From the NCBI RefSeq assembly GCF_018131105.1, contig NZ_JAFCJI010000001.1:1984001-2048000 (forward strand): a stretch of 64,000 nucleotides of DNA. Reading direction: 5' to 3'. This document shows positions 5,342 to 8,315 of this stretch, piece after piece (the stretch's first letter is position 1; each line of letters begins with the position of its first letter). Below the pieces are notes generated by a model that worked only from the letters and a program-made list of their open reading frames with translations, was not told where the DNA came from and did not search any database. The DNA comes from Bradyrhizobium manausense (GTDB taxonomy: Bacteria > Pseudomonadota > Alphaproteobacteria > Rhizobiales > Xanthobacteraceae). The position numbers and the translations under genes are program-made.

Positions 5342-6436
5342 ATGCGCACCGATCTCTTCGATTTCGATCTGCCGCCCGAGCGCATTGCATTGCGCCCGGC
5401 GAGCCCGCGCGACGCCGCCAGGATGCTGGTCGTCGAGAACGGCGTGCTGCGCGACCAGACCATCGCCGATCTGCCCCACTGGCTGAAGGCGGGCGACCAA
5501 CTCGTCGTCAACGACACCAAGGTGATCGCGGCGCAATTGAAAGGCCGCCGCATCGGCCGCGAGACCGAGCCGAAGATCGAGGCCACGCTGATCAAGCGCC
5601 TCGACGGCTCGCGCTGGCAGGCGCTGGTGAGGCCCGCGAAGAAGCTTGTCGCCGGTGATCGCATCCGCTTCGGCAATGAAGGCAAGGTCTGCCTGCTCGG
5701 TCACCTCGATGCCGAGGTCGAGGCCAAGGGAGAGGAGGGCGAGGTGACGCTGTCATTCTCGTTCCACGGCCCGACGCTGGACCAGGCCATCGAAGATCTC
5801 GGCAGCCCGCCGCTGCCGCCCTACATCGCCTCCAAGCGCACGCCTGACGATCAGGATCTCGCCGACTACCAGACCATGTTCGCGGCGAACGAAGGCGCGG
5901 TGGCGGCGCCCACCGCGGGCCTGCATTTCACGCCGGCGCTGGAGCAGGCGCTGAGCGCCCGCGGCGTCGGCATAAACCGCATCACGCTGCATGTCGGGGC
6001 GGGGACCTTCCTGCCGGTCAAGGTGGACGACACCGACGGCCACAGGATGCACGCCGAGTGGGGCACGATCTCGGCCGAGACGGCGGAGCAGCTCAACGCC
6101 GCACGCAAAAACGGCGGCCGCATCGTCGCCGTCGGGACCACGTCGTTGCGCCTGCTGGAGAGCGCAGCGGGCGAGGACGGCAAGATCCAGCCTTTTACAG
6201 CCGAGACTTCGATCTTCATCACCCCCGGCTATCGCTTCCGTGCGGTCGATATTCTGATGACGAACTTCCACCTGCCGAAGTCGACATTGTTCATGCTGGT
6301 GTCGGCCTTCGCCGGCCTGGACACGATGAAGCAGGCCTACGCGCACGCGATCGCGAATGAATACCGGTTTTATTCGTATGGCGATGCGTGTCTGTTGTTT
6401 CGGGCAGAGCCGCAGGGTGGGTTACGCCTTGGCTAA
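5342..6436 (+). CDS. queA: S-adenosylmethionine:tRNA ribosyltransferase-isomerase
   Basis: 364 residues from ATG 5342, the start matching the conserved QueA N-terminus [19 protein letters not shown]. QueA transfers the ribosyl moiety of SAM to preQ1-modified tRNA to form epoxyqueuosine. Family blocks are clear: [30 protein letters not shown] (near residue 185), [15 protein letters not shown] and [19 protein letters not shown]. The last codons (about GGLRLG) and the stop lie inside a palindromic repeat (6414-6444), so the C-terminal tail appears to be repeat-derived. tgt, the preceding step in the pathway, lies 4.4 kb downstream on the same strand. Confidence 0.96.
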
Positions 6437-6444
6437 CCCACCCT
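6414..6444. repeat. perfect 11-bp inverted repeat covering the queA stop codon
   Basis: AGGGTGGGTTA (6414-6424) and TAACCCACCCT (6434-6444) are exact reverse complements with a 9-bp loop. The unit resembles the dispersed GGGTGGGTTA-type repeat of Bradyrhizobium. The TAA of queA is the first three bases of the right arm. It also lies 10 bp before the end of asd, so it may serve as a bidirectional 3' end structure. Confidence 0.65.
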
Positions 6445-6454
6445 ACGATTTCCC

Positions 6455-7480
6455 CTACGCCATCACCCGCTGAGGCAACAACTCCGCGATCTGAACCGCG
6501 TTGAGCGCAGCGCCCTTGAGCAACTGATCGGCTGCCACGAACATCGAGATCGAATGGCCGGAGGGGTCGCTGAGGTCCTTGCGGATGCGGCCGACCAGGA
6601 CGTCGTCCTGACCCGAAGCGTCGATCGGCATCGGGAAGTAGTTCTTGACGCGATCGTCGACGACCTTCACGCCGGGCGCCTGCGCCATGATGGCGCGGAC
6701 CTGGTCTTCGGTGATCGGCTTCTCGCATTCGAAGGTGATGGCCTCGCAATGCGCGCGCAACACCGGCACGCGGACGCAGGTGACGCCGATGGCGATCTTC
6801 TCGTCCTCGAAGATCTTGCGCGTTTCCTTGATGACCTTGGTCTCTTCGTCGTTGTAGCCGGTCTCGGGGTCGACGGCGGTGTTGTGGTTGAAGAGGTTGA
6901 AGGCGTAGGGGTGCGGCATCACCTTGGGCGTATAGACCTGCCCATTGAGATTGGCGCGAGTGGACTCGACGAGCTCCTCCATCGCGGCTGCGCCGGCGCC
7001 GCTTGCGGCCTGGTAGGTCGAGATGATGACGCGCTTGATGCGGTTCTTCTGATGGATCGGCCAGAGCGGCACCAGCGCGGTGATGGCGGCGCAGTTCGGG
7101 TTCGCGATGATGCCCTTGTGATCGCGGATGCGGTTGCCGTTGACCTCGGGGATCACAAGCGGAACGTTCGGATCCATGCGGAAGGCGGAGGAATTGTCGA
7201 CCACGACAGCGCCGGCCTTGACCGCAATCGGGGCAAACTTCTTGGAGATGCCGCTGCCGGCCGAGAACAGCGCGATGTCGACGCCTTCGAAGGCGCGCTC
7301 GGTCAATTCCTCGATGACGACATTCTGGCCGCGAAATGACACCGTCTTGCCGGCGGAGCGGGCGCTGGCCAGCGCCTTGAGCTTGCCGACGCGAAAGCCG
7401 CGCTTGTCCATGGTGGCGATGAATTCGGCGCCCACCGCACCGGTGACGCCGACAATCGCGACGACGGGATCGTTACTCAC
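6455..7480 (-). CDS. asd: aspartate-semialdehyde dehydrogenase
   Basis: 341 residues from GTG 7480, chosen because GGAGG lies exactly in front; an in-frame upstream extension lacks support. The enzyme reduces aspartyl phosphate to aspartate semialdehyde with NADPH, the branch point to Thr, Met, Lys and diaminopimelate. The Rossmann motif VAIVGVTGAVGAEF is at the N-terminus. The catalytic Cys is in IIANPNCAAI, and the substrate-binding R-V-P-V and H residues are in TCVRVPVLRAHCEAI. Immediately upstream are an intrinsic terminator and a Thr-rich leader peptide, so expression is probably controlled by threonyl-tRNA charging through attenuation. Confidence 0.96.
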   Translation of the reverse strand: MSNDPVVAIVGVTGAVGAEFIATMDKRGFRVGKLKALASARSAGKTVSFRGQNVVIEELTERAFEGVDIALFSAGSGISKKFAPIAVKAGAVVVDNSSAFRMDPNVPLVIPEVNGNRIRDHKGIIANPNCAAITALVPLWPIHQKNRIKRVIISTYQAASGAGAAAMEELVESTRANLNGQVYTPKVMPHPYAFNLFNHNTAVDPETGYNDEETKVIKETRKIFEDEKIAIGVTCVRVPVLRAHCEAITFECEKPITEDQVRAIMAQAPGVKVVDDRVKNYFPMPIDASGQDDVLVGRIRKDLSDPSGHSISMFVAADQLLKGAALNAVQIAELLPQRVMA

Positions 7481-7511
7481 TATGTCCTCCATTGAGATCG
7501 ATTGAGACAAC

Positions 7512-7543
7512 AAAAAAGCCCCGGACCATCTTGGGCGGGGCTT
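7512..7543 (-). terminator. attenuator terminator in the asd leader
   Basis: On the minus strand, AAGCCCCG and CGGGGCTT form an 8-bp stem followed directly by a run of six U (the A-run 7512-7517 on the plus strand). It ends 31 bp upstream of the asd start and lies 29 bp downstream of the stop codon of the Thr-rich leader peptide. This is the place and form expected of a ribosome-dependent transcription attenuator rather than the end of a separate transcript. Confidence 0.8.
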
Positions 7544-7572
7544 CGGTAGAGCTTGATGCGTTTAGTCGACGA

Positions 7573-7644
7573 CTATGCGCGCACGCCTCCCCGGGCCCCG
7601 AAGGCCGTGGTGGTTTTGGTCGTGCGTTTGGTGGTCGTGAACAT
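7573..7644 (-). CDS. threonine-rich leader peptide of asd
   Basis: A 24-codon frame (ATG 7644 to TAG 7573) encodes MFTTTKRTTKTTTAFGARGG followed by VRA. Eight of the first thirteen residues are Thr, using ACC and ACG codons. There is no Shine-Dalgarno sequence; instead the ATG falls 8 bp after a good -10 element, so the message is probably leaderless, as known for trpL in rhizobia. A stalled ribosome at the Thr codons under Thr-tRNA shortage would be expected to prevent formation of the terminator at 7512-7543 and let RNA polymerase enter asd. The composition, the downstream gene and the terminator all point the same way. Confidence 0.85.
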   Translation of the reverse strand: MFTTTKRTTKTTTAFGARGGVRA

Positions 7645-7652
7645 GGTGGCGA

Positions 7653-7681
7653 CTTATGCGGGAGAGTCCTGCGCCCGTCAA
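7653..7681 (-). promoter_or_regulatory. sigma70-type promoter of the asd leader
   Basis: On the minus strand TTGACG (7676-7681) and CATAAG (7653-7658) are separated by exactly 17 bp. The -35 matches the consensus in five of six bases and the -10 in four of six. The predicted start falls 7-9 bp further on, at or next to the ATG of the leader peptide (7644), which explains the missing ribosome-binding site. Confidence 0.7.
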
Positions 7682-7709
7682 TGGTCTTTGGGAGGGACCG
7701 TGGCTCTCG

Positions 7710-8315
7710 TTACTTGCCCCGAACGCCCGGCGGCTCGAGGAGGACCTCCTTGAGGTCGTCGCCGCTGATGACGACAATCGCAAAATTGAGCCGGCCGCCG
7801 TCGCGCACCAGCCCGCCGCTGATGGCCTTGCCGGATGCAGCCTTCTCGGCGACGCGCACGGCGTCGGCGAGGCGATGCCTGATGCTGCCGAGGACGGCGA
7901 GATTGCTGCGATCGTCGTGGTCGAGCTCGGTGAGGGGCAGGGCGGCTTCACCGCCCATGACCTCGCCCGTCGCGGCGTTGATGGTGTAGCGCCAGATGCG
8001 GTCGTTGTGCAGGGTCTTGACCCGGTACACCGGTACGCCCGAGCCGCCGTCGAAGCTGATATCCGCCGTGGTGGCGCCGGCATGCCGGGCCTCCGCAATC
8101 GCCATGGCCTGGCTGATCGAGATCGACGAGCTGCGGAAGCGCTCGATCTCGCGGCTGACGGCCTGGCGGTCCGCCGCGGCGTCACCATCTGTCTCATTGT
8201 GAAGGGCGGTGGGTGTCGCGCCTGCCGAGACGGTCGCACGGGCCGGTGTTGCGATGAGCAGCCCCGACAGGGCGATCGCAAGCAACCCGTACACCCCTGG
8301 TCTTGTCGCGCTCAT
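7710..8315 (-). CDS. secreted PepSY-domain protein
   Basis: 201 residues from ATG 8315, which begins a signal peptide (VYGLLAIALSGLLIATPARA, cut near residue 29). The mature protein has a PepSY-like unit reading ISISQAMAIAEARHAGATTADISFDG...VPVYRVKTLHNDRIWRYTINAATGEVMG (about residues 65-125) and a second related segment, LADAVRVAEKAASGKAISGGLVR...LNFAIVVISGDDLKEVLLEP. PepSY modules are small periplasmic or membrane-associated domains, some of which inhibit proteases or sense ligands. Its promoter, about 200 bp upstream, overlaps a TetR-type palindrome (8505-8525). Its 3' end abuts the asd promoter region. Confidence 0.82.
   Translation of the reverse strand: MSATRPGVYGLLAIALSGLLIATPARATVSAGATPTALHNETDGDAAADRQAVSREIERFRSSSISISQAMAIAEARHAGATTADISFDGGSGVPVYRVKTLHNDRIWRYTINAATGEVMGGEAALPLTELDHDDRSNLAVLGSIRHRLADAVRVAEKAASGKAISGGLVRDGGRLNFAIVVISGDDLKEVLLEPPGVRGK

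Follow-up and report, generated by a model that had tools for sequence, protein, structure and literature searches.

The accessory aspartate-semialdehyde dehydrogenase gene asd2 of Bradyrhizobium manausense, located on the minus strand of the 64,000-nucleotide (64-kb) stretch of DNA that was analysed (the window), is very probably controlled by ribosome-mediated transcription attenuation in response to the supply of both threonine and lysine. The support for this proposal comes from analysis in silico, namely from the conservation of a short leader ORF, the pattern of selection within it, the terminator that follows it and the gene family to which asd2 belongs. Elements of this kind are known, and the present case is of interest for its dual signal, its accessory target and the extent to which similar leaders recur. 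A first-pass annotation of the same DNA had proposed a threonine-codon attenuator of asd; the lysine codons and the paralog status of asd2 are points that were absent from it.

The locus is read on the minus strand throughout. A predicted promoter of the leaderless type occupies 7653..7681 (TTGACG at 7681-7676, a 17-nt spacer and CATAAG at 7658-7653), with 8 nt between CATAAG and the leader ATG at 7644, and the predicted start of the asd2 transcript is this ATG or a position no more than about 2 nt from it. The leader ORF MFTTTKRTTKTTTAFGARGGVRA (7573..7644) consists of 23 codons and a stop, and carries eight Thr among its first 13 residues plus two Lys; the putative sensor codons 3-13 (TTTKRTTKTTT, 7606..7638) contain a core of T5, K6, T8, K10 and T11 at 7632-7612. 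After the leader stop, 28 nt precede an intrinsic terminator hairpin, GAAGCCCCGCC..CCGGGGCTT, which folding places at 7515..7544, with a U-run of six T residues at 7517-7512. A predicted antiterminator (7536..7600) would form through the pairing of codons 15-22 with 7560-7536, a segment that includes the 5' arm of the terminator. The GGAGG ribosome-binding site of asd2 (7486..7490) lies 5 nt ahead of the GTG at 7480, with which the gene begins (6455..7480, 341 aa). The Thr-rich 23-residue peptide, the promoter elements, the terminator with six U and the GGAGG and GTG of asd had all been read from the sequence in the first-pass annotation, and each was found in place when the locus was reread and folded. 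A scan of 6300-8300 with E. coli-type consensus rules returned 0 promoters and 0 terminators. The promoter was missed because the scan requires the -10 element to end in T, which CATAAG does not, and the terminator because only loops of 3-8 nt are allowed, the outer loop here being 12.

The identification of the downstream gene as asd, made in the earlier reading, stands insofar as the protein passes the cut-offs of TIGR01296 asd_B (405.0 bits, cut-off 324.2) and PRK14874 (433.9, cut-off 223), and has to be qualified insofar as the gene is an accessory copy. Besides asd2, the genome has one other asd gene, at G000:C1:4156677, with 46% identity between the two; this other gene is named asd1 and regarded as the housekeeping gene because 148 of 150 genomes from across the order contain a relative of it at E 1e-90 or better. 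In the family sample, matches to asd2 at E 1e-92 or better were present, among those listed, in 103 of the 107 genomes of the genus and in 2 of the 47 genera of the family; a smaller, overlapping sample of the genus gave 35 of 36 genomes. A tree of 67 proteins splits asd1 from asd2 with 100/100 support. The enzyme acts where the routes to lysine (and diaminopimelate), threonine, methionine and isoleucine diverge, and the gene family (the asd_B equivalog) belongs, as is characteristic of attenuators of this class, to the pathway of the amino acids that the leader would sense. No Lys/Thr leader was found upstream of asd1 either in eight Bradyrhizobium loci (seven different genes, L157 and L165 being one gene) or in L169, from one other member of the family, the best ORFs having 2-4 such residues in 10.

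Additional copies of asd2 were noticed in two Bradyrhizobium genomes, at L311 (G438:C1:1897908) and L312 (G424:C92:18419), each with its own Thr/Lys leader (L120 and L116, respectively); the neighbours of the L311 copy are presumably a transposase gene and a groEL gene. The record that contains L037 (JAUEPE010000002.1) is titled 'Frankia sp. RB7' and is probably mislabelled; its asd2 is 98% identical to the gene in the window and is preceded by a typical leader.

One could suppose that the arrangement in the window is no more than the ordinary terminator of the upstream gene lying beside a meaningless Thr-rich ORF, and indeed the ORF upstream of the locus runs in the same direction and ends at 7710. 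This explanation is, however, extremely improbable. The two strands of the window contain 1018 start-to-stop ORFs of 10 aa or more, among which the leader is the sole one with 9 of 10 residues Lys or Thr, the runner-up having 7, and when the 300 nt ahead of asd2 were subjected to 5000 dinucleotide shuffles, none exceeded 6 Lys/Thr in 10; a chance ORF was rejected on these two counts. Moreover, leaders precede asd2 in distant genera too, and the leader is kept, with selection of a coding type, in all of the loci that were compared within and near the genus.

That comparison, which had been put forward as a check in the first-pass annotation, was carried out on 155 asd2 loci (110 and 45 from two rounds; L150 comes from another genus of the family), taken from named and unnamed collections in which the same strain may be represented twice. 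A Thr/Lys leader is retained in 155/155, as is the terminator, and changes in the core codons are mostly synonymous; the outcome that the first-pass annotation had named as refuting its reading, loss of the Thr codons within an otherwise conserved region, was not observed. The leader is 22-24 codons long (23 in 150 of the loci) and contains 3-9 Thr and 1-3 Lys; its best 10 residues include 5-9 Lys plus Thr, as against 0-5 in the best reverse-strand ORF. CATAAG is equidistant from the ATG in 137 of the loci and TTGAC stands at -37 from the ATG in 142, while the terminator has the form of GGGGC followed by 6-7 T in 152 loci and of GGGGCC followed by 5 T in the remaining three. The codon counts given below refer to the 84 distinct 23-codon leaders in this set, in which the core residues T5, K6, T8, K10 and T11 are constant in 80, 81, 77, 82 and 83 cases, respectively, and the residues V, R and A at the end of the leader in 80, 82 and 71. 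Clustered codons for products of the pathway, under coding selection, and a terminator between leader and gene in every locus are what one finds in the attenuator class.

Selection within the leader was estimated by pooling all pairs of the 84 sequences irrespective of kinship. Over codons 2-13, dN/dS is 0.58 (1.28 and 2.01 in the wrong frames +1 and +2), and over the five core codons it is 0.16; over codons 14-23 it is 2.77, with a pS of 0.08 and with GGA at codon 19 in 84/84. Since dN/dS is low in the early codons and synonymous sites are nearly frozen in the late ones, the first half of the leader is kept as codons and the second half as RNA, and the reversed pattern of codons 14-23 fits what is expected where RNA pairing matters.

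The frozen second half also bears on how the leader might act. The available passages of PMC7298713 describe the trp attenuator rnTrpL of S. meliloti as leaderless, with a transcript that begins at the leader ATG, as a source of trans-acting products and, with experimental support, as an attenuator (trpL) on only one of several trp operons. From this description, it resembles the asd2 leader in that the ATG of a short ORF forms the 5' end of the transcript (a start that is predicted in our case) and in attenuation, which is likewise proposed here, and differs in that it carries Trp codons before trpE(G) and the asd2 leader Thr and Lys codons. The precedent of the leaderless rnTrpL/peTrpL, together with the conserved V, R and A of the peptide end, would suit a scheme in which the main role of the terminated RNA, or of the leader peptide, is exerted in trans and asd2 is controlled in cis only secondarily. 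We consider such a scheme quite improbable, given that the synonymous conservation of codons 14-23 fits RNA pairing, that all 155 loci have the leader before asd2 (they were, though, found through asd2), and that the six strongest matches of an RNA model of the leader (R1) in 119 genomes, all of 93 bits or more, are at asd2. As a family-wide finder, R1 was rejected; among the matches listed, the many weaker ones are mixed and some are probably due to chance.

With respect to the signals, the threonine attenuator of the first-pass annotation is upheld by the conservation of the Thr codons and is probably incomplete, the Lys AAA codons being conserved equally well. Where Lys occupies positions 6 and 10 of the 84 leaders, it is encoded by AAA in 162 of 163 cases. 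In these leaders as a whole, AAA and AAG number 186 versus 23, and the asd2 genes at all 155 loci have 36 versus 2744. The corresponding counts are 63 versus 22 in 36 leaders that precede asd1 in other families (4 versus 340 in 17 gene bodies) and 23 versus 24 in 18 asd2 leaders from outside Bradyrhizobium (13 versus 140 in the gene bodies). Because the Lys codons are as conserved as the Thr codons and are nearly always the rare AAA, dual sensing of Thr and Lys is likelier than the sensing of Thr alone, and the recurrence of this rare and possibly slowly supplied codon in leaders of differing layouts would favour Lys as a second signal. The choice of AAA may also reflect a need for unstructured, A-rich RNA. 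It is conceivable, if unlikely, that the attenuator responds to threonine only and that Lys is retained because AAA prevents structure in that stretch or because Lys is required in the peptide: Thr outnumbers Lys by 8 to 2 in the leader of the window, and an A-rich AAA would leave the track of the ribosome open. Against this, K6 and K10 (81 and 82 of 84) match the best Thr codons in constancy, positions 12-13 interchange Thr, Lys and Ala, and Lys and Thr are mixed both in the asd1 leaders of other layout and in the distant asd2 leaders; moreover, the asd branch leads to both amino acids.

The switch expected of a dual Thr/Lys attenuator was modelled by folding the early transcript (the RNA up to the 5' arm of the terminator) for 28 of 29 representative loci. 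The modelled ribosome covered 15 nt before and 13 nt after the first base of the A site, and L061 was left out because its terminator arm does not fit the pattern that was applied. With the A site at any of codons 3-11, pairing between leader codons 14-19 and the 5' arm of the terminator has a mean probability of 0.84-0.88, and the value is 0.51, 0.28 and 0.13 for stalls at codons 12, 13 and 14 and 0.46 without a ribosome. The mean energy of the early fold is about -29 kcal/mol for codons 3-11, versus -14.7 once the ribosome has reached the stop codon, a state in which a short 2:3 pairing stays in the early transcript (mean 0.63). In the model, the range of stalls that would open the antiterminator, codons 3-11, fits the position of the most conserved codons (5-11). 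Synonymous recoding of codons 14-23 (100 recodings each) reduced the mean pairing probability from 0.87 to 0.48; the real fold ranks among the best 5 of 100 in 13 of the 28 representatives, and more than 10 of the 100 recodings are at least as stable in 10 of them.

From these features we infer the following course of events. Transcription would begin at the leader ATG or in its immediate vicinity, with a ribosome trailing the polymerase. With charged Thr-tRNA and Lys-tRNA both plentiful, the ribosome would reach the stop codon and cover part of the 5' arm of the antiterminator, whereupon the GCCCCG/CGGGGC hairpin would form and transcription would end in the U-run. With either tRNA scarce, the ribosome would pause at codons 3-11, and codons 15-22 would remain available for pairing with 7560-7536, which would capture the 5' arm of the terminator and allow RNA polymerase to read into asd2. 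In the event that the leader is not translated, its RNA would fold on itself and the terminator would form. The layout of ribosome-mediated attenuation that had been recognized in the first-pass annotation is thereby reinforced, both by the leader and terminator of all 155 loci and by the antiterminator that folding predicts for a stalled ribosome. On this mechanism asd2 would serve as a booster copy beside an asd1 without a leader of this kind and, if the proposal is true, a single leader responsive to two end products would constitute a compact integrating switch on a spare enzyme copy. The layout predicts that stalls at codons 3-11 open the gene and later ones do not, and that limitation for threonine and limitation for lysine both act.

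In the full-length RNA (153 of the 155 loci), the terminator has a mean probability of 0.95 without a ribosome and 0.93 with the ribosome at the stop codon, and of 0.48 with the ribosome at codon 11 and 0.61-0.72 with the ribosome at codons 3-8. Because the full-length RNA at equilibrium often prefers the terminator even with the ribosome on codons 3-8, the switch must be kinetic, as is likewise the choice in the trp paradigm. The fold of the whole leader has a z of only -1.75 versus shuffles. Covariation gave no support to the antiterminator hairpin, nor to the terminator hairpin in the 29 representatives, in which 96% of the cells are paired, because the sequence hardly varies.

Genes of the asd2 type, at E 1e-100 or better, occur in 32 of 386 genomes and 19 of 266 genera of the class; 30 of the 32 matches were taken as loci, and 28 of these are from outside Bradyrhizobium. 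Upstream ORFs with at least 6 Lys/Thr in 10 residues, of which MSPKTKATTKTKKPFRASVIARA and MSKRTQTTTTMTKKTTLRGGLFVMRAA are examples, precede 18 of these 28 genes, as compared with 0/28 on the reverse strand. L331 and L342, the nearest relatives of the Bradyrhizobium asd2 (node 100/98), both have a leader and a terminator with a U-run. The more distant L289 has MAMMTKTSMTKKTIRSRGGLFGMGD and a similar terminator, and it is the one locus with a leader among six distant loci of a phylum sample, L290-L294 scoring 2-3 with no Lys/Thr leader. A strict terminator scan was positive for 4 of the 18 distant asd2 leaders, and several further ones show, by eye, the same G+C-rich hairpin with a T-run that is shorter or absent. 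Inspection of 14 of these sequences indicates that many of the 18 retain the hairpin without the T-run and that several have CCGTCTC..GGAGAC near the start codon, a pairing that might mask the ribosome-binding site.

Housekeeping asd genes of the order were sampled at one to four upstream regions per family label, with the Bradyrhizobium loci and four loci that carried no label, L159-L162 (scores 7-9; L160 is the same gene as L175), left out. A score of at least 6 Lys/Thr in 10 was reached by 36 of the 66 upstream regions, versus 0/66 on the reverse strand, and at least one member at 6 of 10 was found for 24 of the 47 labels, L205 (Lys/Ser-rich) being doubtful among the 24. When compared with their own shuffles, 38 of the 66 did better at p below 0.05, as did 2 of 28 from outside the order (the 28 best matches among 101 such genomes that had one). 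The leader threshold was missed by 10 of the 28 distant asd2 genes and by 30 of the 66 housekeeping genes. In the housekeeping leaders the Lys/Thr cluster mostly lies near the end of the ORF, and the strict scan found a terminator of -9 kcal/mol or better after 0 of the 36; some, among six that were inspected by eye, have a CTCTCCC..GGGAGAG pairing near the start codon, and in several the GGGAGAG-type partner is the ribosome-binding site. To judge from their sequences, these leaders perhaps use translational attenuation, and we would read them as alike to the asd2 leaders in function, with no claim of homology. Five housekeeping asd leaders from other Hyphomicrobiales, L229, L193, L180, L227 and L228, were seen by eye to be without a T-run. 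Upstream of homoserine dehydrogenase genes, no leader with at least 6 Lys/Thr in 10 was found at the 19 loci with a start placed by motif (of 22 loci, 3 were dropped for lack of a start motif).

We incline, with a little more confidence than doubt, to the view that asd2 and its dual Thr/Lys leader form a conserved alphaproteobacterial module that has been inherited or transferred as a whole, its read-out having been swapped between a terminator with a U-run and a translation-blocking hairpin, and that the Lys/Thr leaders of housekeeping asd arose or were retained across the Hyphomicrobiales. Dual end-product sensing at asd would then be the norm in this group rather than an exception, since such leaders also precede the housekeeping gene across this order. 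Judging from the conserved layout, there might be many unannotated leader peptides in alphaproteobacteria.

Among known systems, the thr attenuator of enterobacteria (thrL) combines codons for products of the pathway, alternative hairpins and an intrinsic terminator, controls thrABC and senses Thr and Ile; the asd2 leader shares with it the product codons and the terminator and differs in its target. Vitreschak et al. reportedly carried out a comparative survey in 2004. Rfam families gave no match in the window at gathering cut-offs, and Thr_leader gave none in 7400-7800 at E up to 10, the lone match to that interval being a weak one to asX2 on the other strand (21.2 bits, cut-off 70, E 0.063); identity with a known RNA family was rejected, Rfam being without a match in the window. 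Our search, which left most subscription journals outside its range, found no published description of the asd2 leader element. According to the available passages of PMC2864571, an asd RNA motif (RF01732) occurs in Lactobacillales, and an attenuator-like sequence before asd of S. mutans is cited there; control at the RNA level upstream of asd is suggested in that group as it is here, and the Rfam library gave no match at the present locus. The start sites of B. japonicum have been mapped in PMC4842269, in the main text of which 'asd' and 'semialdehyde' are absent, and 'aSD' in the passages shown of PMC7143759 means anti-Shine-Dalgarno.

The closest parallel is SEP5 of S. meliloti, which the available text of PMC10117765 presents as a translated small ORF in the 5'-UTR of an 'aspartate dehydrogenase' gene, with six Thr codons and three Lys codons in a cluster; it is described there as conserved only in Sinorhizobium and suggested to act in post-transcriptional regulation, and the downstream gene is probably asd. 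According to the first-pass annotation, no such leader of asd is known to have been described for rhizobia, a statement that is weakened by this suggestion as far as the published description of SEP5 goes. By that description, SEP5 is like the asd2 leader in placing a Thr/Lys cluster before a gene of the aspartate pathway. Its cluster is near the 3' end of the ORF, a layout that is often shared by the housekeeping asd leaders of the order; the leader of the window is not of this SEP5-like kind, having an N-terminal cluster, a terminator and asd2 as its gene.

Other leaders were noticed in the course of the analysis. A leaderless-type leader lies ahead of most of a set of genes at L343-L351 (L351 being that of the window genome), L301 and L304, which we take to be DapA-like; in Bradyrhizobium it reads MITKSCAIVSKKGPHPGTSDFCAR, with AAA AAA, some of the others have one Lys, and the terminator is of the form CCCCGCC..GACGGGG. 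At L352, the most distant DapA-like locus, no leader was seen. A lysine attenuator on a dapA paralog is possible on the basis of these sequences. A further Bradyrhizobium leader, MIKCSRKVNFNHMTRFGWAVEGVVR or similar, with a G+C-rich terminator, is present at L305 421-548 (+) and L307 1956-2091 (-), and leaders of the same type are found at L308 362-488 (+), at L309 389-518 (+) and in the window genome at G000:C6:68320-68447. They have no obvious amino-acid signal and lie about 0.64-0.76 kb upstream of an ORF that presumably encodes the large subunit of a molybdenum hydroxylase.
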